Source: Streptococcus sp. DD12 (GTDB lineage: Bacteria > Bacillota > Bacilli > Lactobacillales > Streptococcaceae). From it: a stretch of 64,000 bases of DNA. This document shows, piece after piece, positions 3,401 through 64,000 of the stretch. Under the pieces are notes generated by a model. It saw nothing but the letters and a program-made list of their open reading frames with translations, did no database searches and was not told where the DNA came from. The position numbers and the translations under genes were made by a program. Each line of letters starts with the position of its first letter. Position 1 is the stretch's first letter. Where the stretch lies: positions 1 through 64,000 of the forward strand of contig NZ_KQ969496.1 in the NCBI RefSeq assembly GCF_001578885.1. Direction: 5' to 3'.

Positions 3401-4891
3401 GAGACCTTCCTAGGTTTTGATGGGGACAAGGTCCCTGATATTGACTTGAACTTCTCGGGTGATGACCAGCCTTTGGCCCATCTGGATGTTCGTGATATTT
3501 TTGGGGAAGATTACGCTTTTCGTGCTGGGACGGTATCGACGGTTGCGGATCGGACAGCCTATGGCTTTGTCAAAGGTTACGAACGTGACTTCCAAAAGGA
3601 TTATAATGATGCTGAAGTTGATCGTTTGGCCATGGGAGCTGCTGGGGTTAAACGGAGTACAGGGCAACACCCGGGGGGGATTGTTGTTATTCCTGACTAT
3701 ATGAATGTGTATGATTTTACACCGATTCAGTACCCAGCAGATGACCTTGAGGCAAGTTGGCGAACGACCCACTTTAATTTCCATGATATCGACGAGAATG
3801 TTTTAAAGCTTGATATTTTGGGGCATGATGATCCGACGATGGTACGCAAGTTGCAGGATTTGTCTGGAATTGACCCTAAGGATATTCCAGCAGATGACCC
3901 AGGTGTGATGGCGCTCTTTTCAGGAACTGACATTTTGGGCGTTACGGCTGAACAAATAGGAACACCGACGGGGATGCTTGGAATCCCTGAATTTGGGACC
4001 AATTTTGTTCGTGGCATGGTTGAAGAAACGCATCCGACGACATTTGCGGAATTGCTTCAGCTGTCTGGTTTATCGCACGGGACCGATGTGTGGTTAGGCA
4101 ATGCTCAAGACCTGATTAAGGAAGGGATTGCTGACTTGTCTACGGTTATTGGTTGTCGGGATGATATCATGGTCTATCTGATGCACCGTGGCCTAGAACC
4201 TAAAATGGCCTTTACCATTATGGAACGCGTGCGTAAGGGCATGTGGTTGAAGATTTCTGAGGATGAGCGTAATGGCTATATTCAGGCCATGCGTGAAAAC
4301 AATGTTCCGGATTGGTATATCGAATCCTGTGGAAAAATCAAGTACATGTTCCCTAAGGCCCATGCGGCAGCCTATGTTTTGATGGCACTGCGGGTGGCTT
4401 ATTTCAAAGTGCATTATCCCATTTATTATTATTGCGCCTATTTTTCCATCCGTGCTAAGGCTTTTGATATCAAGACCATGAGTGCTGGTCTTGTAGCGGT
4501 CAAGGAGCGGTTGAAGGAAATTGCCCTCAAACAAAAGAATAACGAAGCTTCTAACGTGGAAAAAGATTTGTACACCACTTTGGAAATCGTTAATGAAATG
4601 CTTGAGCGTGGCTTTTCTTTCGGTCAGTTAGACCTCTATAAGAGTGACGCCACCGAGTTTCTAATTGATGGCGACACCTTGATTCCGCCATTTGTGGCCT
4701 TGGACGGTCTCGGAGAAAACGTAGCTAAACAGCTGATAAGGGCTCGTGAAGAAGGTGAGTTTTTGTCTAAAACAGAGCTCCGTAAGCGTGGTGGTCTATC
4801 TCAAACTTTGGTTGATAAAATGGATGAGATGGGGATATTAGGTGGCTTGCCTGAAGATAACCAGTTGAGTTTATTTGAGGACCTTTTTTAG
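485..4891 (+). CDS. polC: DNA polymerase III PolC, alpha subunit (Gram-positive type)
   Basis: Replicative polymerase of low-GC Gram-positives, carrying its own 3'-5' proofreading exonuclease; it acts at the fork with the sliding clamp. The 1468-residue length is normal. In order there is an N-terminal region, an OB-fold part, a PHP domain starting with VEFHAHTN near residue 345, a DEDD exonuclease inserted in the PHP domain (VFDVETTGL near 433), a four-cysteine zinc module (CPQC...CPKC near 930-960) and the catalytic DID pair in PDIDLNFSG near residue 985. The C-terminal QLSLF is a typical clamp-binding peptide. A clear AGGAGA Shine-Dalgarno precedes ATG485. It follows the tRNA cluster and ends at a shared terminator with def. 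Confidence 0.97.
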
Positions 4892-10131: not shown

Positions 10132-11475
10132 ATGTTGAAAATCTATGATACAATGACTCGCAGTTTACGGGAATTCGTTCCTATTGAGGAAGATAAGGTT
10201 AAAATGTATGTGTGTGGCCCTACGGTTTATAACTACATCCATGTGGGAAACGCGCGTTCAACGGTGGCTTTTGATACCATTCGTCGCTATTTTGAGTACC
10301 GTGGCTATGAGGTGACCTATGTTTCTAACTTCACGGATGTGGATGACAAGATTATTCGCCGAGCCTTGGAAGAGGGTATCAGTCCTCAGGAAGTTGCGGA
10401 CAAATACATTGCAGCCTTTCGCGCAGATGTGACGGAGTTGGGCGTGAAACCAGCGACCCATCACCCTCGAGTAGTTGATTTTATGCCGGCCATTATTCAA
10501 TTTGTCTCTGATTTGATCGCCAAGGGTTATGCTTACGAGAGCCAAGGGGATGTTTATTTCCGAGTAGAAAAGTCCAAGCATTATGCTCAGTTAGCCAACA
10601 AAACCTTAGAAGATTTGGAGCTTGGCGCTTCTGGCCGGACAGACGAAGAGACCGCTCGCAAGGAAAATCCAGTGGATTTTGCTCTTTGGAAGGCTGCAAA
10701 AGCTGATGAAATTTCTTGGGACAGTCCTTGGGGACCAGGACGTCCAGGTTGGCATATCGAGTGTTCCGTTATGGCGACGGAACTGTTGGGGGACACGATT
10801 GACATTCACGGTGGTGGTGCCGATTTAGAGTTTCCCCACCACACCAATGAAATTGCGCAATCAGAAGCGAAGACTGGTAAGACTTTTGCCAATTACTGGA
10901 TGCACAATGGTTTTGTCAATATTGACAATGTCAAGATGTCTAAGTCTTTGGGGAATTTCATCACGGTGCATGATGCATTAGAGACCATTGAAGGTCAGAC
11001 CTTGCGTTTCTTCTTTGCGACACAGCATTATCGAAAACCGATTAACTTTACAGAGAAGGCTCTCCGTGATGCTAAGGTTAATTTGAAGTATCTGCAAAAT
11101 ACTTACGAGCAACCTTTTGCAGGTGACGTTGATCCAACACAGCTGCAAGAGTTTGAAGAGCGTTTTGTGGCTGCGATGGATGAGGATTTCAATACGGCTA
11201 ATGGGATTACGGTGGTCTTTGATATGGCCAAATGGATTAATTCTGGGCATTATAACCAAGAGGTGAAAGATAGTCTGGCTCGCATCTTGGAGGTGTTTGG
11301 AATTGTCTTTGCAACAGAGACTTTGGATGCTGATATTGAGGACTTGATTGCTAAACGCCAAGAAGCGAGAGCCAATCGTGACTTTGCCACTGCCGATAAA
11401 ATCCGAGATGACCTACAGGCGCGTGGGATTAAATTACTGGATACAAAAGACGGGGTGAGGTGGACACGTGATTGA
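10132..11475 (+). CDS. cysS: Cysteinyl-tRNA synthetase
   Basis: Charges tRNA-Cys. The 447-residue length is normal for the class I enzyme. The zinc ligand Cys28 precedes the HIGH-type motif HVGN (37-40), the ECS zinc-site motif is in WHIECSVMA, and KMSKSLGN is present in the second half. It overlaps mrnC by eight bases, indicating coupled translation. Confidence 0.97.
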   Translation: MLKIYDTMTRSLREFVPIEEDKVKMYVCGPTVYNYIHVGNARSTVAFDTIRRYFEYRGYEVTYVSNFTDVDDKIIRRALEEGISPQEVADKYIAAFRADVTELGVKPATHHPRVVDFMPAIIQFVSDLIAKGYAYESQGDVYFRVEKSKHYAQLANKTLEDLELGASGRTDEETARKENPVDFALWKAAKADEISWDSPWGPGRPGWHIECSVMATELLGDTIDIHGGGADLEFPHHTNEIAQSEAKTGKTFANYWMHNGFVNIDNVKMSKSLGNFITVHDALETIEGQTLRFFFATQHYRKPINFTEKALRDAKVNLKYLQNTYEQPFAGDVDPTQLQEFEERFVAAMDEDFNTANGITVVFDMAKWINSGHYNQEVKDSLARILEVFGIVFATETLDADIEDLIAKRQEARANRDFATADKIRDDLQARGIKLLDTKDGVRWTRD

Positions 11476-11860
11476 CATCAACCTCATCAATGGTGTGGCC
11501 TTGGCTTTTGAGGGGGATGCGGTATATAGCATGTACGTGCGTCGGCATCTCATCTTTCAGGGCTTAACCAAGCCTAACCGTTTGCACTATGCAGCCACCC
11601 GCTATGTGTCTGCCAAGGCCCAGGCTGCTTTGATGGCACAACTAATGGACGAAAAGGTGTTGACGGAAAAAGAAGAGGCTATCTACAAGCGAGGCCGTAA
11701 TGCCAATAGCCATACCAAGGCTAAAAATACGGATATCGTGACCTATCGCATGTCGACGGGCTTTGAGGCCGTTATTGGTTATCTGCATATGACCGACCAA
11801 CTTTCTCGCTTAGAAGAACTGGTAGATTGGTGCATTGCCCGTGTAGAAAGAGATGCTTGA
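11468..11860 (+). CDS. mrnC: Mini-ribonuclease III (23S rRNA maturation)
   Basis: A 130-residue RNase III catalytic domain without a dsRNA-binding domain, as in Mini-III, which trims the 23S rRNA precursor. The signature acidic patch is in AFEGDAVYSMYVRRH, with further acidic residues in the helix containing TGFEAVIGYL. It starts with GTG inside the end of cysS. In many streptococci rlmB follows; here a repeat element and convergent galU follow instead. Confidence 0.92.
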   Translation: MIDINLINGVALAFEGDAVYSMYVRRHLIFQGLTKPNRLHYAATRYVSAKAQAALMAQLMDEKVLTEKEEAIYKRGRNANSHTKAKNTDIVTYRMSTGFEAVIGYLHMTDQLSRLEELVDWCIARVERDA

Positions 11861-11893
11861 GAGGGCTTGTACTCATCTGACATAAAAATGTCT

Positions 11894-12031
11894 AAGACCT
11901 CCCTTTGGGGAGAAGTAGACCGTAGCGATTCCTAAGGGATTGCTTGCCTTAACGCTGAGCCTAGTGTCTCAAAGTTGCTAAACGCTTGAAACAGACCTGT
12001 TTCAGGCGTTTTTTTCACGGCAGGAAGCCTT
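11894..12031 (+). repeat. 138-bp structured repeat element, copy 1
   Basis: This segment aligns without gaps to the reverse complement of 55566-55703, with 111 of 138 bases identical by hand count. It holds a strong hairpin at about 11980-12012 (stem AAACGCTTGAAACA, one G-U pair) followed by a T-run, a weaker hairpin AACGCTGAG/CTCAAAGTT at about 11951-11976, and imperfect 10-base terminal inverted repeats. It lies between convergent mrnC and galU. It could be a terminator-bearing ncRNA or a short mobile repeat; no coding frame is evident. Similarity continues about ten bases past 12031. Confidence 0.8.
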
Positions 12032-12116
12032 AGTTCTTACTGATTAGAAGTGGCCGGGTCCTTTCTATTGGCGGACTTCCCTAGTTCCTCCCGGTTTAAT
12101 CAGTTTGTCCCCATGC

Positions 12117-12151
12117 TAAAAGGCCTAAGATAGCATCTTAGACCTTTTTTT
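12117..12151 (-). terminator. galU terminator
   Basis: A 12-bp stem-loop with flanking A- and T-runs. One position is a G-U pair on the minus strand but a C-A mismatch on the plus strand, so it is built for the galU transcript. Confidence 0.8.
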
Positions 12152-12153
12152 GT

Positions 12154-13077
12154 TTACTTGTCTTTTGGACTGGTTGCAGAATTATCTAGGGATTTACCGA
12201 GTTCGATGAGGTAAGCCTTGAGGTCTTCTTTAACTTGAGGGTGTTGTAGGGCGTAATCAATTGACGTCTTCATAAAGCCAAATTTATCACCGACATCATA
12301 GCGTTTACCGGTAAATTCACGGGCAAAGACGCGTTGGGTCTTATTGAGGGTGTCGATGGCATCGGTCAATTGGATTTCATTACCGGCACCTGGTTTTTGC
12401 GTTTCTAAAATCGTGAAAATTTCAGGGGTCAACAGGTAGCGTCCGATGATTGCCAAATCACTTGGTGCATCTTCTGGTTTTGGTTTTTCAACAAAAGATT
12501 CGACACTGTAAAGGCCATTTTTACCTTCGCCTTGAGGGGCAATGACACCATAGGCAGAGACATCTTCGTGTGGCACAGGCATGACGGCAATGGTAGAAGC
12601 ATGCGTTTGATCATAATCATTAATCAACTGTTGGGTTAATGGTGTCGCATGATCATCAGTGATATCCATCAAGTCATCCCCAAGCATAACCACAAAAGGT
12701 TCATCCCCTACAAAAGCTTTGGCCTGTAAGACAGCATCTCCCAGCCCACGTGGGTGACTTTGACGAATGAAATGCAGATTGATAGCAGTTGTGTCATTGA
12801 CTAACTTGAGCAAGTCTGTTTTGCCCTTTTGTTCCAAGTTGTACTCGAGTTCAAAGTTAGAGTCAAAGTGATCTTCGATAGAACGTTTTGACTTCCCTGT
12901 CACGACCAGGATTTCTTCGATACCAGATTTGAGAGCTTCTTCGACGATAAACTGAATGGTCGGTTTATCGACAATGGGCAACATTTCCTTGGCCAAGGCC
13001 TTAGTTGCTGGCAAAAAGCGGGTTCCTAGACCTGCAGCAGGGATAACGGCTTTACGGACTTTCTTTTTCATTAGCAT
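12154..13077 (-). CDS. galU: UTP-glucose-1-phosphate uridylyltransferase
   Basis: Makes UDP-glucose for envelope glycans. The nucleotidyltransferase motif [19 protein letters not shown] lies near the N-terminus, followed by [10 protein letters not shown] and the [17 protein letters not shown] region. The start is ATG13077 or ATG13071 (AAAGGAG at 13083-13088 gives spacings of about 5 or 11 bases). A longer in-frame extension into gpsA is not credible. It follows gpsA by 28 bases on the same strand, the usual streptococcal pair. Confidence 0.95.
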
Positions 13078-13105
13078 AGGGACTCCTTTATTTTTTTGTT
13101 GGGGG

Positions 13106-14125
13106 TTATTCTGCCCATTCGTTTTCAGAACGAAATTCATTTTGCATCATATTGAGGATGGCTTCTTTGACATCAGCGCCTTGGTAAATCACACGGTAGA
13201 TAGCCGTTGTGATAGGCATATAGACATCCAGTTCTTGGGCCAATTCATAGGCAACCTTGGTCGTGGAAATACCTTCGATGACCATGCCCATGTTGCGTTC
13301 AACATCCTCGAGTTTCTCTCCTTGACCTAGAGCATAGCCAGCCCGCCAGTTGCGAGAATGGACGGATGTTCCTGTAACAATTAAGTCACCAACACCAGAT
13401 AGGCCACTGTAGGTAAGCGGTTTTGCCCCCATTTTGACACCTAAGCGGGTAATCTCGGCTAAGCCACGGGTGATAACAGCAGCTTTGGCATTGTCTCCAT
13501 AGCCCATACCAGCTAGGGCTCCCGCTCCAACAGCGATAATATTCTTGAGAGCGCCAGCCGTTTCAACACCGATAACATCTGAATTGGTGTAGAGGCGGAA
13601 GTAATTATTACTAAAGAGAGCTTGGGCATAGGCAGCTGTCTCAGGGTCAATGGATGCTGCGGTAATCAAAGTCAAATCCCGCACGATAGTTTCTTCAGCG
13701 TGGCTAGGACCTGAAATGACCACAATGTCACTGCGGAGTTCGCTAGGAATTTCTTCTTCCAAAATGGTCGACAGGCGTTCGTGAGTGCCAGGTTCTAAGC
13801 CCTTAGAAGCATGCATGATGACCGCAGGGTGGTCTAAAACCTCAGCAACTTGCTGGGCGACCAGACGTGTGACCTTGGTTGGGACAACAAATAAAATAGC
13901 ATCCACATCAGCCAAGGCTTCAGTTAAGTCATCATAAGCCACAATAGCAGGGTCCAAGACCGCATCCTTAAAGTAACGGGTATTGGTGTGGCTGGTGTTG
14001 ATTTCAGCGATTTGTTCAGGGATATTTCCCCAGATACGGACTTCGTGTCCGTTGTCATTGAGCACCTGTGATAGGGCAGTTCCCCAGGAACCAGGACCCA
14101 AGACGGCAATTTTTTGTTTTGTCAT
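13106..14125 (-). CDS. gpsA: Glycerol-3-phosphate dehydrogenase [NAD(P)+]
   Basis: Makes sn-glycerol 3-phosphate for phospholipid and teichoic acid synthesis. The 339-residue length is normal. The N-terminal Rossmann motif GPGSWGTAL and the later KNIIAVGAG and [14 protein letters not shown] motifs are all present. GAGGAGA precedes the ATG. It heads the gpsA-galU operon. Confidence 0.97.
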
Positions 14126-53299: not shown

Positions 53300-54802
53300 A
53301 TGTTAAGAAATCGAAAATTTTGGGTGTGGTTGCTAGCTGGCATCCTTTTGCTTGCTGGGCTAGCAGGGGCTTTTTATGTCGCCGGAGGTCAACGGCGTCT
53401 AGTGGACCAGGTCACCCGTAGTGATAACAGTTATCTCTTTACAGACTATTTGCAGGCCAAAGACCCACTGGCTCTGACAGCCGCAGGACAGGTTCGGTCT
53501 TATCGAATTGACCGCCAGTCGATTGCTAGTGAGGGAAATCGGATTTTTGTTAGCTATTATGTCAACAACAATCCCAAAGCTAGCCTTGGTCTGGAACTCA
53601 AAAATGACCAAGGCCTGCTTGAAGTGACCGAGATTAAACCCTCTAAAGCCTTTACCCGCCTGGTGACCAATCAGGACTATCAGGCACTTACGGGTCAAAT
53701 CAAGCAGGCTGTCAATCAGGTCAAGACCGAGGGTGGTTGGGATGCTGACAGCAGTGCTGGCTACTATGAACGCCTGCGTGAGCTCATGAAAAAGCGTCAG
53801 CGTAAAGACCTGTCTCAAACCCTGACTGATCTTGCTAGTGAAGCCAAGCAAGTTGGTTCGCCTGTTTACACAAATCTCTTTGTTTGGTCTAATTTGTCAG
53901 CCAAGGACAAGTTGGCCCTGGTCATGACCCAGATGAAAGCTGAAGTGGATAGCCATAACTTTTTGCAGATGGGAACGGATGGTTACCGCTTTTCGAGTGA
54001 CTTGGCCCCTAACGGTGATTTTTTTACCTATTTTCGTAAGGCCGTGATGGATGCCTACCCGACTAGCAAGGGGCTCAATGCGGATCATCTGGGGCTAAAA
54101 GTCCACTTGTTTAGGTCTTACATTGACAAACAAGCCATTGACTATGTGCGCAGTCATTTTAAAGGGAAAACGGACTACGAAAAATTGCTAGCCTTTGCGA
54201 AAAAGAACAAGCTGACCTTTGACTACACGACGGGTGCTGTTCTCCACAACCGCACACAGGGGGACTTTACTTACACCCAGCACATGAAGGTGCAACTGCC
54301 TAAGAGTAATACCAGTGGCGATTACGGAACCAACAATGCCCGGTTTATCGAATATATTGTCGATTTGAAAACAGGACGTTTTGTTTCTGAGTGGAATGTC
54401 TACCGCCAGTTAGCAGATGGGTCTTATGATTCAGACCCTGACCATTACGCTGTTGCTGATGGCGCAGATGCTGCCAATACAGAGTCTGCTAACTATGGCC
54501 TGCCTAAAGGTCTCAATAATGATGTGCCCGCCTACCTGACGCGGTCGCACCGCTACCTGGATGTCACCCATCCACCCGATACAGTAATCCGCCGCAAGAT
54601 GACCAAGGTTTGGCGTCCAGCCAAATTATTGTCCAAGGGCGGTCGCTACGCAGATATTGTCAAGAAAGGAGGTCAGTCTGACTATGATGAATGGAATGCG
54701 GTTCAAGATGACCAAAAAGAGGGTCGCTATGGGAGCTTCATTGCTTCTCCTTATGTTGGTGACGGTTTTAGGGATTTTTCTAATAAACAATCAAAAAAGT
54801 AA
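53300..54802 (+). CDS. Membrane-anchored DUF3114-like protein
   Basis: A 500-residue protein with an N-terminal membrane helix (about 7-29, WVWLLAGILLLAGLAGAFYVAG) and a large outer domain. The sequence, including GDFTYTQHMKVQLP, RFIEYIVDLKTGRFVSEWNVY and VIRRKMTKVWRPAKL, resembles streptococcal DUF3114 proteins; the match is from memory and moderate. It could be related to endonuclease-toxin-like surface domains, but I cannot show that. The last 95 bases also encode the start of the next gene in another frame. Confidence 0.55.
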   Translation: MLRNRKFWVWLLAGILLLAGLAGAFYVAGGQRRLVDQVTRSDNSYLFTDYLQAKDPLALTAAGQVRSYRIDRQSIASEGNRIFVSYYVNNNPKASLGLELKNDQGLLEVTEIKPSKAFTRLVTNQDYQALTGQIKQAVNQVKTEGGWDADSSAGYYERLRELMKKRQRKDLSQTLTDLASEAKQVGSPVYTNLFVWSNLSAKDKLALVMTQMKAEVDSHNFLQMGTDGYRFSSDLAPNGDFFTYFRKAVMDAYPTSKGLNADHLGLKVHLFRSYIDKQAIDYVRSHFKGKTDYEKLLAFAKKNKLTFDYTTGAVLHNRTQGDFTYTQHMKVQLPKSNTSGDYGTNNARFIEYIVDLKTGRFVSEWNVYRQLADGSYDSDPDHYAVADGADAANTESANYGLPKGLNNDVPAYLTRSHRYLDVTHPPDTVIRRKMTKVWRPAKLLSKGGRYADIVKKGGQSDYDEWNAVQDDQKEGRYGSFIASPYVGDGFRDFSNKQSKK

Positions 54803-55406
54803 ACCGCTAAAAAATAGCCTCTATCAGACCATTGCCAAGGAAAATTATGTGACTCTCACCGATGGCTATGCCAAGAGTGTCTATGGTGACGAAGTTGGAC
54901 AAACTTTTTCGGTCAAGACTCAGGAACTATACGGCGATGACATTGCCGTCAAGGGAGATAAGGTCTACGGAACAGAGCTGGATGGCCAGACCGCCAAAGC
55001 CTTTTATCGGGAAGTCTGGAAGGAAGCCCTAGAAGCGACCAAATACCTACAAATAAATAAGTCTGCCATCAAAAAAGCTAACTATAAGGTTACCTTAGAC
55101 TTGGCTGACACTTGGGGAAATCTCAAACTCTCTAGCGATAGCCGGGGTAACAATGACATTCTCAATGATTATAAGGATAAGACTCTCAAATGTCTTCGCA
55201 TTCATTTTGACAAGTCTTATCGCCCAACCCGTATCGAGGGTTACTACCAAGCAGATGGTGACCGAGGGTGGTATAACCTTCTCTATCTGGCCTACCCTGA
55301 CCTAACTAAGGCCAGCTTTGACAGCAAACTGGATGCCTATATCCAGACCATCCAAGCCCAGCCAGATGAAGACGAGGAAAGCGAGCAAGTAGAAGACACC
55401 GAGTAG
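54708..55406 (+). CDS. Membrane-anchored protein, unknown family
   Basis: About 232 residues. A signal-anchor helix (GASLLLLMLVTVLGIFLI) is followed by an outer domain (NSLYQTIAKENYVTLTDGYA, LKCLRIHFDKSYRPTRIEGYY) and an acidic tail (PDEDEESEQVEDTE). The start is uncertain: ATG54708 has little ribosome site, while ATG54729 has AGAGGG eight bases upstream. Either way the membrane helix is encoded inside the end of the previous gene, so the two are translationally linked. Possibly a partner or immunity-type protein of its neighbour, which is speculative. Confidence 0.55.
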   Translation: MTKKRVAMGASLLLLMLVTVLGIFLINNQKSKPLKNSLYQTIAKENYVTLTDGYAKSVYGDEVGQTFSVKTQELYGDDIAVKGDKVYGTELDGQTAKAFYREVWKEALEATKYLQINKSAIKKANYKVTLDLADTWGNLKLSSDSRGNNDILNDYKDKTLKCLRIHFDKSYRPTRIEGYYQADGDRGWYNLLYLAYPDLTKASFDSKLDAYIQTIQAQPDEDEESEQVEDTE

Positions 55407-55565
55407 CGCTTAAAAATAGGTTTAATGAGCAAACCGCAAGGTGAGCTTATGTGAAAAAAACAGCCAGGAGGAGGTTTGAAAACAAAGACAAACTGATCTT
55501 ATCGGTAGATTCTACGGAACTCTGTTAATAGAAGAAGATAATTTCAGTTCTTCCAAGCAAGAACC
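55407..55565. other. Intergenic region without a convincing gene
   Basis: A strong Shine-Dalgarno-like AGGAGGAGG at about 55467-55475 is followed only by a TTG and a six-codon frame. A GTG frame of 25 codons starts at 55451. A short inverted repeat GTTTG/CAAAC flanks the site. These may be remnants of a gene. Confidence 0.35.
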
Positions 55566-55703
55566 AAGACTTCCCGCCGTGAGAAAAATGCTTGAAACAG
55601 GGATGTTTCAAGCATTTGGGAACTTTGAGACCTTAGGCTCAAAGTTAAGGGATGGAATCCGTCAGGAGTCGCTACCGTCCACCCCTCACCTAAGGGAAGT
55701 CTT
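55566..55703 (-). repeat. 138-bp structured repeat element, copy 2
   Basis: The better-formed copy of the element also present at 11894-12031, in the opposite orientation. It is bounded by perfect 10-base inverted repeats (AAGACTTCCC and GGGAAGTCTT). Read on the minus strand it has three stems: GGGGTGGA/TCCATCCC, AACTTTGAG/CTCAAAGTT, and a perfect 14-bp AAATGCTTGAAACA/TGTTTCAAGCATTT followed by T5. The loop CCTAAGG of the second stem is complementary to CCTTAGG near the 5' end, allowing a pseudoknot. It lies between convergent genes. The conserved loop GTAGCGAYTCCT occurs in both copies. Confidence 0.8.
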
Positions 55704-55726
55704 AAAAAGACTTTGACTTCAAAGAA

Positions 55727-55750
55727 AAACAGCCTCAGGGCTGTTTTTTT
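55727..55750 (+). terminator. Plus-strand terminator beyond the repeat
   Basis: Stem AACAGCC/GGGCTGTT with a short loop and seven T, probably ending transcripts from the upstream surface-protein genes. Confidence 0.7.
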
Positions 55751-55877: not shown

Positions 55878-56939
55878 CTAATAGCCTTTAATCTTATCTA
55901 CCATTTTGCGGTCAAGTTTTTTGACCAAGGCTTGGAGGAAGGCTTGGGCTTGTTGGAAATCTTCGAGGTTGAAGAGGGTTTGGTGGGAGTGGATGTAGCG
56001 GGCGCAGACCCCGATTGTGGTTGAAGGGACACCGCCTGCTTGTAGGTGGGCAGCACCTGCATCTGTACCACCTTTGCCAGCGTAGTATTGGTAACGAATC
56101 CCCGCTTCGTCAGCTGTTTCAAGTAAAAAGTCCCGCATGTCTTCTAGGAGGACATGGCCAGGGTCGTAAAAGCGAATAAGTGTGCCGTCACCGATAGCAC
56201 CTTGGTCTCCGTAGACGTCTCCAGCTGGGGAACAGTCCACAGCCAAAAAGATGTCTGGTTGGAAGGTCTGGGTTGAGGCATGGGCACCTCTGAGTCCGAC
56301 TTCTTCTTGGACATTGGCACCTGCTATTAAGGTATTGGGAAGGTCGGTGTCCGCCAGATTTTTAAGAAGTTCAGCCACCATGAGGACACCGTAGCGGTTG
56401 TCCCAGGCCTTGCTGATGACATTTTTGCCATTGGCAGTGAGGATGGTCTGACTTTCTGGAATGATGGTGTCACCAGGGTGCACGCCGTAACTTTCGGCCT
56501 CAGCCTTGTCGCTAAAGCCAGCATCAAAGACAATATCTTCTACCTTAGGCAAGCTAGCACCCGATGTCCCCCGCAGAAGATGAGGAGGAACAGAACCTGA
56601 GATGACGGGATACTGGTCACCTTTTTGTGTGGTCAGGGTAAAGCGTTGGGCACTCACCACCAGCGGGTTCCAGCCTCCTAGTGGCACGACACGTAGGGTA
56701 CCGTTGTCCTGGATTTTGCTGACAAGAAATCCGACTTCGTCCATATGGGCAGCGACTAGGATGGTTGGTGCTTGAGGGTCATTGTTAGGCCGTACACCAA
56801 AGACACCACCGAGGCCATCGCTGGTGATGTGGTCAACATAAGGGGCCATTTCTTTTTTAAGAAACTCACGCACAGGGCGCTCATGGCCTGCCACAGCTTG
56901 TAGTTCAGTCACAGTTTTGATACGGTCAAATAAAGTCAT
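55878..56939 (-). CDS. pepA: Glutamyl aminopeptidase, M42 family
   Basis: A cytoplasmic, large multimeric metallo-aminopeptidase of 353 residues. The M42 metal-site motifs are present: AAHMDEVGF, KAWDNRYG, NVQEEVGLRGA, and AVDCSPAGD, plus GKGGTDAGAAHLQ. GGAGAAAG precedes the ATG. It is divergent from the DUF4651-thioredoxin-ytpR genes, the usual streptococcal arrangement. Confidence 0.95.
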   Translation of the reverse strand: MTLFDRIKTVTELQAVAGHERPVREFLKKEMAPYVDHITSDGLGGVFGVRPNNDPQAPTILVAAHMDEVGFLVSKIQDNGTLRVVPLGGWNPLVVSAQRFTLTTQKGDQYPVISGSVPPHLLRGTSGASLPKVEDIVFDAGFSDKAEAESYGVHPGDTIIPESQTILTANGKNVISKAWDNRYGVLMVAELLKNLADTDLPNTLIAGANVQEEVGLRGAHASTQTFQPDIFLAVDCSPAGDVYGDQGAIGDGTLIRFYDPGHVLLEDMRDFLLETADEAGIRYQYYAGKGGTDAGAAHLQAGGVPSTTIGVCARYIHSHQTLFNLEDFQQAQAFLQALVKKLDRKMVDKIKGY

Positions 56940-58558: not shown

Positions 58559-61500
58559 ATGGAAAAGAAGGTTCATTACAAGCTGCATAAGGTTAAGAAA
58601 TCTTGGGTAGCTGTGGCGGTCTCTACCTTGTCTATTGCAGCCTTGACAGGGGTGAGTGGCGAAACCGTTGTCTTAGCTGACCAAGTGGATGCGCAAGCAC
58701 AAGTGGATGTGTCGGTGGACAATCAGGGCTCAGACACTGTGGCATTGGATATTGCCAGTGATACAGCTGGTCAGAGCACGAGTGACCAAGCGGTGGCTAC
58801 TGGAGCAGATGTCCAAGACGATAAGACGCAGTCGCAAGTGACTAGCTCGGACCAGTCTGATAGCCAAACAGATGGGGCAGGTTCTGTTGACGCTACGACG
58901 GTAGTGCTAGCAACGGACAGTCTAAAAGATGCGGCCGTGTCAGCTGATCAGCTAGGAACTTCTTTAGTCGGTCGCACACGCGCAGTCAGTGAGGACACAA
59001 CAACCAGCGCAGCGACAGGACACACTCAGGAAATTGGTGGAAAAACCTATCTGGTCGATGAGCAGGGAAATGTCCTTAAAAATTATGTTGTTGAAAAAGC
59101 TGGTGGAAGCCAATATTTTAATAGTAGCACTGGGGAATTAACCAATCAAAAGGCTTATTGGTTTGGTCAAGACAGCGGGTCAACGGTTGACCCTAATAAT
59201 CCAGCGGCTAAAGGCGATAAAAATGCCCTCTATGGGACCAGTGAGCAGGATGTCGAAACGGTGGACGGCTACTTCACAGCTGAAAGTTGGTACCGCCCTA
59301 AGGAAATCCTAAAAGATGGGACGACCTGGACAGCTTCGACAGCCGACGACAAACGGCCACTTTTGACTGTTTGGTGGCCAAGTAAGGACATCCAAGCCAA
59401 ATACCTCAACTACATGGCGCGTCAAGGGTTTGGCACGGATCAGAATTTCACAGCTAGCAGTGATCAAGCTACGATGAATCAAGCGGCTCAGGATATCCAA
59501 AAGGCTATCGAAGTGCGCATTGGTAAGGATGGGACGACGTGGTTGCGGGCAACGATTTCAGACTTTGTCAAGACCCAACCAGGCTGGAACATTGCTTCTG
59601 AAAACTACGACACCAACGACCACTTACAAGGTGGGGCCTTGCTTTTTAACAATGACAGCCGGACGTCTCAGGCGAATTCGGATTACCGACTCTTGAACCG
59701 CACACCGACCAGTCAAAAAACAGGAGAACGCAACCCGAAATATACGGCAGACTTGACAACAGGTGGCTTTGAATTTCTCTTGGCCAATGATATTGACAAC
59801 TCAAATCCTGTCGTTCAAGCTGAGCAACTCAACTGGCTCCACTATATCATGAATATCGGCAGTCTGACCGGTGGGGATGCCTCAGAAGATTTTGACGGTC
59901 TGCGGGTTGATGCGGTGGATAATGTCGATGCAGACCTCTTGCAGATTGCTTCAGATTATATGAAGGCACGCTACAAGATTGATCAAAGTGAGGCGGATTC
60001 TATCAAGCACCTCTCCATTCAAGAAGCTTGGTCTCACAACGACCCTTACTACACGACCGACATGAAGGATGCCCAACTGCCAATGGATGACTTGGCACGT
60101 CTGTCTACTGTCTTTTCATTGTTGCGTCCGATAAATGGGACCAATGGCGCTCGCTCTGGTTTGGAGCCTTTGATTGACAACTCCTTGAACCCTCGCTCTG
60201 CTAGCAAGAAAAATGGGGAGCGCAGAGCCAATTATACCTTTGTCCGGGCCCACGACTCGGAAGTGCAGACGGTTATCGGAGAGATTATCAAGCGTGAAAT
60301 CAATACCAGCTCAACAGGGAACACCTTCACGCTGGATGAAATGAAAAAAGCTTTTGACATCTACAATGCCGATATGCGTAGCGCTAATAAACGCTACACC
60401 CAGTACAATATCCCATCCGCCTATGCCCTCATGTTGACCAATAAAGATGTGGTGCCACGGGTTTACTATGGGGATATGTATACGGATGACGGGCAATACA
60501 TGGCACAAGAATCGCCTTACCACAAAGCGATTGAAACCCTTCTGAAAGCCCGCATCAAGTACGTAGCAGGTGGGCAAGACATGCAGATGAACTACGGCAT
60601 TACCTCTAGTCGCCCATCTGAACTTAGTGGCTGGTCGCCTGCGGACATCTTGACCTCTGTTCGTTATGGAAAAGGCGCTGATAATGCCAGCGATGCAGGT
60701 ACAGCAGAAACCCGTACCCAAGGGATGGCAGTTATTCTAGCCAGCAACCCGACTATGAAGCTGACAGGCACTTTAAAAATCAATATGGGGGCAGCGCATA
60801 AAAACCAAGCCTACCGTCCTTTGATTAAGACCACAAGCCAAGGATTGGACACCTACCTTAACGATAGCGACACCAACCTAGTCAAATACACCGATGACAA
60901 CGGCTACCTGGTCTTTACCGCTGGGGAAATCGAAGGCACCCGTAACCCGCAAGTAGATGGCTATTTAGCGGTCTGGGTTCCGGTTGGTGCTAGTGACACC
61001 CAAGATGCGCGTACGCAAGCCAGCAACCAAAAAAATAGCAATGGTTTGGTCTATACGTCATCAGCTGCCTTGGATTCTCAAGTCATCTACGAAGGCTTCT
61101 CTAACTTCCAAGATTTCGTGCAGGACGACTCCCAATACACCAATAAGCTCATTGCGCAAAATGCGGGTCTCTTTGCGTCATGGGGTATTACTAGTTTTGA
61201 ATTTCCGCCACAGTATGTCTCTAGTACAGACGGCACCTTCTTAGACTCTGTCATTCAAAATGGCTACGCCTTTAGCGACCGTTACGACATTGCCATGAGC
61301 CAAAACAACAAGTATGGGTCGCTGGCTGACCTCAAGGCGGCTCTTAAAGCGGTACACGAACACGGCATGTCAGCGATTGCTGACTGGGTGCCAGACCAAA
61401 TCTATAACCTACCTGGTGATGAGGTCGTGACGGCTACTCGGGTCGATAATTATGGGAAAACCAAGGCTGGCGCTACTATTAACCATAGCTTGTATGCAGC

Positions 61501-62746
61501 CAAGACACGGACCAAAGGGGATGATTACCAAGGCAAATACGGTGGGAAATACCTCGATGAGCTCAAAGCCCTCTACCCACAAATCTTTGAGCGCGTGCAA
61601 GTATCAACCGGTAAAACGATTGATGGGTCCCAAAAGATTACCACTTGGTCAGCCAAGTATATGAATGGAAGCAATATCCTAGGACGTGGGGCGGATTATG
61701 TCTTAAAAAACAGCGCAGGGAACTACCTAAGTACACGTGATGGTAGCCTCAACCTACCTTTGGTATTAGCCAGCGGTTCAGATAACAACCAGAACCAAAC
61801 GGATGGCAAGGGCCGTTTTGTGCGCCGCTTGGGTAGTGCGTATTACTACTACACAGATGGCAGTATGGCACGCAACACCTTCATCCAGGACAGCAAGGGA
61901 AATGTCTACTATTTCAACAACCGTGGTCGAATGGTCACCGGCCAACAAACCATCAAAGGCAACTCCTATTTCTTCTTGGCTAATGGCGTGCAATTGCGCA
62001 ATGGGTATCGCCAAGATAGCAAAGGGCAAGTCACTTACTATGATGCCAATGGGGTGCTCTCAAAAGACCTACCTAGCCCACAACCGCAACCAGACCTTAA
62101 GGGCCGTTTCCAAGAAATTGGGGACAATATTTGGGTTTACCTGGACGCATCTGGTAAGCGCGTGACAGGTCGTCAAACCATCAACGGTCAAAACCTCTAC
62201 TTTGACCAAGATGGCATTCAAGCCAAGGGGCGTGCGGTTACAGTTGACGGCGTTCTTCGCTATTACGATGTCAACTCTGGTGAGATGATTATCAACCGTT
62301 TTGAGCAAGTGGGTGACAATGTCTGGGCTTACTTTGGCAATGACGGAGCAGCACTTAAAGGCTTGCAACACATCAATGGTCAAACCCTTTACTTTGACCA
62401 AAATGGGCACCAAGTCAAAGGTGCCACAGCGGTAGTAGATGGTCAAACACGCTACTTTGATGCCAATTCTGGTGAGATGATAACCAACCGCTTTGAGCAA
62501 ATCGGAGACAACGTCTGGGCTTACTTTGACAAGGATGGCAATGCCGTCAAAGGCCGTCAAACCATCAATGGTCAAGACCTCTACTTTGACCAAGACGGCA
62601 AACAGGTCAAGGGTCGTGCCGTAACCGTCGATGGCAGCTTGCGCTATTATGACGCAGACTCAGGCGAGATGGTTAAAAACCGTTGGGTAGAAATCTCTCA
62701 AGGGGTTTGGCGTTACTTTGATGCTCAGGGACGTAGTTGGACCTAA
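58559..62746 (+). CDS. GH70 glucosyltransferase (glucansucrase)
   Basis: A 1395-residue secreted enzyme that makes glucan from sucrose. The signal region is of the KxYKxGKxW type ([12 protein letters not shown], then hydrophobic helix). An N-terminal variable region (about 40-160) precedes the circularly permuted GH70 core. Catalytic residues are intact: nucleophile Asp451 (GLRVDAVDN), acid/base Glu489 ([10 protein letters not shown]) and stabiliser Asp566 ([12 protein letters not shown]). From about residue 1080 there are Tyr/Gly-rich glucan-binding repeats (ending near [14 protein letters not shown]). EVQTVI after the third catalytic Asp resembles soluble alpha-1,6-glucan formers, so a GTF-S-like product is possible. 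AAGGAG precedes the ATG. Confidence 0.95.
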
Positions 62747-62786
62747 ACCGACAAAAACGAGGAATATTGAGGAGATCTTTTAGCAA

Positions 62787-64000
62787 TGCAAGAAAAAGTT
62801 CATTACAAATTACATAAGGTCAAAAAGACCTGGGTTGCCCTAGCGGTGTCGAGCCTGTCGATTGCTGCCTTGGGGGCGGCAGGGGAAACGACTGTTTCCG
62901 CAGACCAGGTCAACACCTGGACGGGAAATGGGTTTAACATCAGTGTGTCAACAGATGATAATACCACCACACGGGTAGTGGTCAATGGGGTGGAAGTTGC
63001 TCCGACAACGACCAACCAAGCGACCAACAACACAACACCGACAAATACGACTGCTACTGACACAACGGCCAACCAAGGGCAAGCAACAGCCACTCCAGCT
63101 GATACGGCGACTGCCGATAATACAGCGACCAACGCCGTCAGCGACAAGCAAGCCAGCCCTGCCATCACAGAGGCCAATTCTCAGGCAACACCTACAGCGA
63201 CTGATGCGAGTCCGTCAGCGCCAGCTGATAGCCAGTCACGGATTGAAAATGACCGTCAAGCGACTTCAGCGTCAACAGACCATATCAAAACAGAAGATGG
63301 CAAGTCTTACTACGTGACGGATTACGGCAATCGTCGGAAAAACTACCTCCTAGAAGACGGCGACAAGACCTATTACTTCGGTCGTGATGGCGCCCAAGTA
63401 GACCAGACGGTTAGTCCTGTTTTGGATGAAAATGCTCCCGTAACGACTTATAGCCAAGGTAATCGCTTGGTGAACACGGATGAAAAGAGCATTGAAGCAG
63501 TTGATACCTTTCTGACCGCAGATTCTTGGTATCGCCCTAAAGCCATCCTCACCAATGGGACAACTTGGACAGACTCTAGTGAGAATGACCTTCGTCCTCT
63601 CTTGATGGTCTGGTGGCCAGACACTAGCACCCAAGTAGCCTATCTGGATTTTATGAAAAAATCTGGTTTAGGGGCAACGACTGCTTACTCAGCTTCATCA
63701 GATAGTGCCACCCTAAACAAGGCGGCCCAAGAAGTCCAAGCCAAAATCGAACAACGCATCAGCAGTGAAGGCAGTACCCAATGGTTGCGGACGGCCATGT
63801 CTGACTTTGTCAAAACGCAAAACCAGTGGAATATAAATTCCGAAAACAAGGGCAATGACCATCTGCAGGGCGGTCAATTGGTCTTTGAAAATGCGCAAGG
63901 AAAAACTGCTGGGCGGACGGATTATGCCAATTCCAACTATCGCCTGCTCAATCGGACACCAACCAACCAAACTGGGACACCAAAATATTTCGATGACCGT
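62787..64000 (+). CDS. Second GH70 glucosyltransferase, N-terminal part (runs off the window)
   Basis: An open frame of about 404 codons with no stop before the window edge. It starts 40 bases after the first gtf, with GAGGAGATC upstream of ATG62787. The signal ([17 protein letters not shown]) is nearly the same as in the first gene. A Thr/Asn/Ala-rich variable region follows, then a YG-type repeat (KTYYFGRDGAQ) and the start of the catalytic core (FLTADSWYRPKAIL, LLMVWWPDTSTQ). The catalytic triad lies beyond the edge. No promoter or terminator is seen in the short gap, so it is probably co-transcribed with the first gene. Confidence 0.93.

Follow-up and report, generated by a model that had tools for sequence, protein, structure and literature searches.

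Two copies of a folded repeat in the window, a stretch of 64,000 nt from Streptococcus sp. DD12 that was analysed as a whole, are probably members of a non-autonomous, MITE-like mobile element that inserts at terminator hairpins. The element, ~240–265 bp long, seems to follow a new target rule: it goes to Rho-independent terminators and often duplicates the hairpin (~27 nt), the duplicate tracking the hairpin in length. Perhaps it is sometimes transcribed and, in places, domesticated.

The repeat pair and its family

Positions 11894–12031 (+) of the window (copy 1) match the reverse complement of 55566–55703 (copy 2) at 111 of 138 positions without a gap, exactly as the preliminary description had it. 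Aligned without gaps to any other 138 bases of the window, copy 1 reaches at most 60 identical positions forward and 59 in reverse. A repeat search stretches the pair to 160 nt (11893–12052 and 55545–55704, 79%), and a second block of 47 nt is common to both copies (12063–12109 and 55487–55533, 72%), so the shared unit exceeds the 138 bp first reported. Core G+C is 0.49 in both copies, and no ORF of at least 100 aa crosses either core.

Both copies had been placed between convergent genes, which the ORF map around each confirms. Copy 1 is flanked by ORFs 11468–11860 (+) and 12154–13140 (−), the second presumably galU-like, and copy 2 by ORFs 54657–55406 (+) and 55878–56939 (−), the second of which we take to be aminopeptidase-like. 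The copies have this position because the element inserts at terminators. The compensated change claimed for the long hairpin is there as well (ACGC..GCGT in copy 1, ATGC..GCAT in copy 2), and an earlier doubt about the strand was right: the better strand in cmsearch is minus for copy 1 and plus for copy 2.

At the Rfam gathering threshold, the whole window yields nothing besides five tRNAs. No sigma-70-like promoter was found in the window region of either copy, a weak test with 0.2–0.4 expected by chance. Elsewhere in the window, a unit of ~192 bp stands in three tandem copies (62104–62684; the second 63% and the third 73% identical to the first), and two gene starts are 75% identical (58559–58645 and 62786–62872) and, by eye, resemble the related signal peptides of two exported proteins.

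Table 1. Parts of the two copies in the window, with strand and basis of assignment
Feature	Position	Strand	Basis
Copy 1, folded core (P1, P1b, P2, P5, P3, P4), decayed	11895–12031	−	cmsearch 94.7 bits, E 7e-22
Copy 1, left arm, starts near GACAAACTGAT	12032–12112	−	common to copy 2; end approximate, from other copies
Copy 1, right arm, approximate	11870–11894	−	analogy with the 25-nt median of other copies
Terminator-like hairpin adjoining the galU-like ORF, probable target of copy 1	12117–12152	−	sequence; T1 position in other copies
Copy 2, folded core, nearly intact	55566–55702	+	cmsearch 140.9 bits, E 1e-33
Copy 2, left arm, starts near AAAGACAAACTGAT	55481–55565	+	comparison of copies; approximate boundary
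Copy 2, right arm, ends near ACTTTGACTTCA	55703–55721	+	comparison of copies; approximate boundary
Copy 2, target hairpin on the upstream side, decayed, AAAAACAGCC kept	55454–55478	+	10-base flank match; weak alone
Copy 2, downstream terminator hairpin, then T-run	55723–55750	+	terminator scan; 0.7 expected from shuffles

Copy 1 is a decayed member of the family, and copy 2 is close to an intact one with a decayed upstream hairpin. Of the 49 family pairs, copy 1 keeps 39, the other 10 being unformed (one of them through a gap), and copy 2 keeps 45. Folded alone, copy 1 is barely above shuffled sequence (z −1.5; 17 of 200 shuffles as good) and copy 2 far above it (z −7.1; 0 of 200). Around copy 1 no second hairpin is recognisable, and its own flanks score no better than mismatched flanks. 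The 10-base match between the flanks of copy 2, AAAAACAGCC, is equalled or beaten by 3 of 49 mismatched flanks; the inverted match of these flanks scores 14.

The preliminary description proposed a dispersed family, and the BLAST and covariance-model checks found many further copies with strong covariation. With copy 1 as query, BLAST gives 19 matches in its own genome, some of them one palindromic hairpin read on both strands. In the same genome, a covariance model that we built on 45 copies picks out 22 places. Across 395 genomes of the order, a scan whose filters scored only eight candidates per genome matches 69 genomes; the window's genus accounts for 66 of them, genus g12 for two and g69 for one, a weak match. 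Full model counts (matches at E ≤ 0.001, with at least one place, in G440, counted on both strands) are 37–54 in ten Streptococcus genomes chosen for being copy-rich, 7 in G067 and 0 in both G005 and G011; outside Streptococcus they are 47 in G240, 112 in G440 and 3, all weak, in G372. An exact-pattern scan of named genomes finds at least 80 loci, the hosts among the matches listed being Streptococcus species and Granulicatella elegans. With the queries used, phage and plasmid records contain no match, and viral contigs contain none by exact pattern.

In the g12 genomes (loci L216–L245; G240 and G440), copies are strung in tandem, one every ~180 bp, and in front of them there is often a half element with neither P2 nor P3. 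The G372 genome, from another family of the order, carries a weak structural look-alike (L218, 1501–1648, minus strand, 38 bits) just before the start of a gene that is presumably tsaD-like; the look-alike has no Rfam match at E ≤ 0.1.

The element inserts at Rho-independent terminators

Target sites are the palindromic hairpins of Rho-independent terminators. The element enters them in both orientations, and a hairpin is often left on each side of it. Here the earlier interpretation holds in part: the dispersed, covarying family stands, and the duplicated terminator hairpin and the empty sites had been missed. When copies are compared side by side, many turn out to have the locus's own terminator hairpin on either side. 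For 50 copies, the similarity between a copy's own upstream and downstream flanks scores 808, against 427 ± 22 in permuted pairings (0 of 20,000 as high), and the own flank is the best partner in 21 of the 50. Removal of two tandem pairs, whose flanks contain neighbouring copies, leaves 46 copies with 644.5 against 382 ± 14 (again 0 of 20,000). The flank and alignment sets hold only matches that cover most of the core.

In a larger set, 67 of 209 copies, with 61 distinct duplicates among them, have a flank score of 13 or more, which 16 of 2508 mismatched pairs also reach; in the remaining copies the duplicated hairpin has decayed or was never present. Duplicates average 27 nt (SD 7, range 13–54), the longest including neighbouring tandem copies. 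A hairpin of five or more pairs forms in nearly all of them (63 of 67), and in those the length of the duplicate correlates with the span of the hairpin (r 0.76). For 75 distinct downstream hairpins, the direct match is the better one in 43 and the inverted one in 30, with 2 ties, terminal repeats favouring the inverted alignments.

Filled and empty alleles were found at five loci. At one of them, the empty allele (L148, genome G024) has a single AAACCTTTCC-ATCT-GGAAAGGTTTTT hairpin after the gene, and the filled alleles (L146 and L147; G061 and G030) have the element between two such hairpins. Locus A is filled in L276 and L261, empty in L271 and filled in the opposite orientation in L309. 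Locus B is filled in L193, L276, L271 and L309 and empty in L342, L281 and L252, its right hairpin being partly changed. The last two retain one intact hairpin in the filled allele: the left alone at locus C (L130, filled, against L317) and the right alone at locus D (L044 and L046, filled, against L247, L254 and L300).

A simple ORF caller places a gene 3′ end beside 158 of 161 classified copies. By context, 70 lie between convergent genes, 40 along and 48 against tandem genes, and 3 between divergent genes. The 161 remain from the 173 of 237 copies that have 700 bases on each side, after 8 unclassified copies and 4 overlapping a called ORF were removed. In these counts, as in the flank and alignment sets, many copies represent a single locus sampled in related genomes and are not independent.

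The core also appears constrained once inserted. Twenty loci provide 132 non-identical same-locus pairs, whose mean divergence is 4.3% in the core, 8.0 and 8.5% in the flanks and 11.7% in the left arm. Of the 132 pairs, which are not independent, 106 have a core better conserved than their upstream flank and 119 a core better conserved than their downstream flank; counted per locus, the upstream flank is less diverged than the core in 5 of 20 loci and equal to it in one. That the core is better conserved than its flanks suggests a role after insertion beyond parasitism. At one locus shared by two genomes (L095 in G000, L028 in G030), the flanks are ~19% diverged, the core 2% and the left arm 0%; judging by these divergences, either recent transfer, repeated insertion or strong local constraint could be responsible.

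At a junction of two genes that we take to be rmlC-like and rmlB-like, a sense copy immediately precedes the second gene's ribosome-binding site; two sets of genomes carry it, in two sequence versions. Seven loci of the L362–L368 type and seven of the L373–L389 type score 94 to 149 bits, and L369 and L370 score 58–64. A check for flank duplication at six of these loci found a short shared stretch, AACAATCAA, in the first type (score 9–11.5) and, in the second, scores of 5.5–7.5, which is chance level. The copies at this junction may be domesticated as regulatory elements.

Fold, pairing and relation to SSRC8

In a complete element, the folded core measures ~137 nt, with an arm of ~88 nt to its left and one of ~25 nt to its right. 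The element's terminal inverted repeats are short (~15 bp) and imperfect, reading AGAATGTAGACAAAC ... CTTTGTCTTCAATCT in the best-preserved copies and degenerate in those of the window. The core helices are P1 (9 bp), P1b (5), P2 (12, the long hairpin), P5 (3), P3 (9, with loop ACCTTAGG) and P4 (11).

This core fold (P1, P1b, P2, P5, P3, P4) is preserved by very many two-sided Watson–Crick changes. In a MAFFT alignment of 45 of the 50 distinct copies (L010, L011, L019, L024 and L049, decayed or carrying an insertion, were left out), 92.8% of cells pair and there are 320 two-sided changes, against 95 in shuffles, with slid controls at 33–50%; these figures include four trial pseudoknot pairs. 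A second alignment holds 111 distinct copies taken at E ≤ 1e-8 from 100 of 361 loci and the window. It pairs 96.3% of cells and has 1131 two-sided changes, against 289 shuffled and slid controls at 35–46%, in an alignment that includes model-building copies and was fitted to the structure by the model. The P3 loop and a 3′ CCUAA segment are complementary in most of 162 copies that fit our search expressions. We leave this pseudoknot unclaimed, because its trial helix has no two-sided change.

The preliminary description took compensated changes as evidence for RNA structure. Such changes are present, but as RNA evidence they are weakened by pairing that is almost purely Watson–Crick. Among 5332 pair cells, 5072 are Watson–Crick, 64 G-U, 51 A-C and 145 other, and G-U does not significantly exceed A-C overall (p 0.26). 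The G-U share of cells is 1.2% in the element and 7.8% in 11 distinct tRNAs found in these sequences (225 Watson–Crick, 19 G-U and 0 A-C of 244 pairs, from a tRNA finder that itself disfavours A-C). In the four helices with non-flipping loops, 35 G-U against 19 A-C (p 0.04) is a hint of RNA-level selection.

The loops of P2 and of one P4 version occur in both orientations. The commoner P4 version has loops both ways (GTA 28 and TAC 9; GAA 26 and TTC 14; AAA 7 and TTT 7), and the other shows no flipped loop among 15 copies. For 61 distinct P2 loops, the reverse complement is also present for 28%, against 15% on resampling (28 of 2000 resamples as high). The P3 loop ACCTTAGG, seen 144 times, is unflipped, its reverse complement occurring 0 times. 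Template switching at palindromes would by itself perfect inverted repeats, and the loop flipping could come from it. Rare G-U pairs, some flipping loops and random orientation together argue for structure that is at least partly at the DNA level; the pairing seems to be selected or copied mainly as DNA, with a contribution of RNA possible. Two-sided covariation thus need not imply RNA structure, since rare G-U and flipping loops suggest DNA folding or palindrome-correcting replication.

The repeat had also been described as belonging to no known family. That holds for SPRITE, whose published description does not fit, and for Rfam at gathering level, but it fails because the S. pyogenes sRNA SSRC8 (RF02616) is a member of the same family. 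Searched with cmscan against RF02616 (SSRC8_2), copy 2 scores 41.3 bits, under the gathering cut-off of 72, and copy 1 has no match up to E 5, so neither window copy reaches the cut-off. Several copies match below threshold (best E 9.7e-14), and some members exceed the cut-off, for example L117 with 76.9 bits. At E ≤ 0.001, RF02616 matches 101 of 118 Streptococcus genomes, 14 of the 118 reach the Rfam cut-off, and controls give 0 of 14. All remaining Rfam matches at E ≤ 5 lie far under their cut-offs, leaving SSRC8_2 as the sole lead among known RNAs.

By these matches and by the layout of the locus, the element and SSRC8 share ancestry. The match covers the P3–P4 region, the strand and the downstream hairpin; the matching strand is the minus strand of copy 1. 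The SSRC8 locus is laid out as hairpin, core, hairpin, like other copies, and at the S. pyogenes-like locus the RF02616 match spans from the upstream to the downstream hairpin. SSRC8 RNA was detected in S. pyogenes by Northern blot and circular RACE, according to the accessible text of its description (PMC3675131). Unlike the element, SSRC8 is presented there as a single sRNA locus with BLAST homologues, and the same text mentions no multi-copy mobility, terminator targeting or duplicated hairpins (PMC3675131). At the S. pyogenes-like locus L030, RF02529 and RF02616, two different Rfam families both named SSRC8, match within ~450 bases on opposite strands.

Mobilisation, known systems and rival explanations

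The element has several features of a MITE: it is short and non-coding with many dispersed copies, its better copies have imperfect terminal inverted repeats, and it shows target duplication (clear in 67 of 209 copies) and empty sites. Unlike an ordinary target site duplication (TSD), its duplicate varies in length with the hairpin. A non-exhaustive search of five genomes by exact end pattern found no transposase or autonomous copy. End HMMs gave no candidate for an autonomous partner in ~1.5 Mb around the loci, in a search that was likewise not exhaustive and whose left-end model came from 9 sequences. At E ≤ 10 there are 13 orphan right-end matches, of which two lie in a deleted copy in L298, one is remnant-like (L336) and the others are weak; among 56 left-end matches a single one is orphan, and weak. 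The L298 copy (4186–4291) is without P2 and P3 and resembles the half elements of g12, and the L336 remnant (4206–4230) is short and keeps both end repeats beside a hairpin.

Among known streptococcal repeats, SPRITE, BOX and RUP of S. pneumoniae are likewise described as short, non-coding, interspersed, MITE-like repeats with predicted folds, enriched between convergent genes (PMC3049150). In the accessible text of that paper, SPRITE has 28% G+C, an 18-bp duplex, AAAA/TTTT ends and no established TSD, and is nearly absent beyond S. pneumoniae and S. mitis; the boxE and boxF modules of S. suis are 115 and 133 nt long (PMC3049150). Our element lacks the A+T-rich composition, the 18-bp duplex with U-rich tract and the AAAA/TTTT ends. 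Unlike SPRITE as described there, it has a core of 34–50% G+C among the 122 matches listed, several helices and a genus-wide distribution, and it duplicates the terminator hairpin. SPRITE was set aside on this published description, and BOX and RUP, more tentatively, with it.

Systems further afield offer partial likenesses. REP/BIME sequences with RAYT and integron attC sites are folded DNA recognised by a recombinase, and group IIC introns target terminators. The element is like the former in the possible recognition of folded DNA and like the latter in its target. To our knowledge, no REP/BIME, attC or group IIC system duplicates a terminator hairpin. Retrotransposition and RNA-guided integration were considered and judged unlikely, since random orientation and the absence of target complementarity (in a few P2 loops, by eye) speak against them. 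The literature covered, which left out most subscription papers, holds no description of a multi-copy, terminator-duplicating family.

For a MITE-like element at terminator hairpins, the probable reading, the steps could be as follows. A trans-acting enzyme would recognise the folded element DNA, single-stranded or as a cruciform, and would join the element at the two feet of the host hairpin. Repair would then leave a hairpin copy on each side, and the length of the duplication would follow that of the hairpin. Insertion at a terminator would be almost harmless to the host, because the upstream gene keeps its terminator, which would explain the high copy numbers. Transcription, as of SSRC8 in S. 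pyogenes, would arise by read-through or from promoters nearby, and at certain loci could have a function. A more specific version can be put forward tentatively: an undescribed element would move as folded DNA through a hairpin-recognising recombinase that inserts it at the feet of terminator palindromes and copies the whole hairpin, at any length, to both sides, as CRISPR repeats are copied at spacer integration, and its fold would be selected as Watson–Crick DNA, not as RNA.

The same fold could instead belong to a family of SSRC8-like small regulatory RNAs whose genes spread by duplication, the fold being kept for action in trans, with the variable 6-nt P2 loop as recognition sequence and a pseudoknot between the P3 loop and the 3′ CCUAA. 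We think this doubtful. It fits the SSRC8 transcript seen in S. pyogenes (PMC3675131), the RF02616 match across both hairpins, the strong conservation of pairs, the complementarity of P3 loop and 3′ segment, and the better conservation of core than flanks in most same-locus pairs. It fits poorly with G-U pairs that are scarce next to tRNAs and not significantly above A-C, with random orientation relative to genes, with the promoter search (itself a weak test) and with a trial pseudoknot helix lacking two-sided change. An element acting in cis, as a structured terminator extension that stabilises or attenuates the adjacent mRNA at a 3′ end or between cistrons and is selected at each locus, would explain why nearly all classified copies adjoin a gene 3′ end and why a sense copy, in two versions, precedes the ribosome-binding site at the rmlC–rmlB-like junction. 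Copies running along and against neighbouring genes in similar numbers (40 and 48), presence that is polymorphic between close genomes and high copy number make it unlikely.

Descent from an IS1202-family insertion sequence, as a miniature derivative, is highly improbable. Transposase genes matching NF033594, a profile that we take to cover the IS1202 group, are found in 12 of the 118 Streptococcus genomes, above the cut-off in 2, and the genome that contains the window lacks a match. For IS1202 of S. pneumoniae a TSD of 27 bp is given, and the accessible text reports no specific target for the long-TSD IS group (PMC10132070). The element resembles this family, as described there, in long target duplication and streptococcal hosts; the IS1202 family differs in being autonomous and in its ends. 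IS1202-type terminal inverted repeats are absent from the element, IS copies ending in the TATCATTCGAAAGTGATAATGTC type and the element in the AGAATGTAGACAAAC type, and IS1202 was rejected as mobiliser on these ends. The variation of duplicate length with the hairpin also speaks against this descent. We therefore regard IS1202 as a parallel for long duplications only.

With a MITE-like element as the preferred reading, a little-studied sRNA entry becomes a genus-wide mobile family, with up to 54 model matches counted per Streptococcus genome. The element is directly testable, since close strains differ in carrying filled or empty alleles. If it is true that the whole palindrome is copied, this points to a hairpin-recognising integration enzyme of unknown kind. 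For the host, the element would represent a near-harmless route for mobile DNA, which settles at the ends of genes, where the terminator hairpin can survive the insertion.
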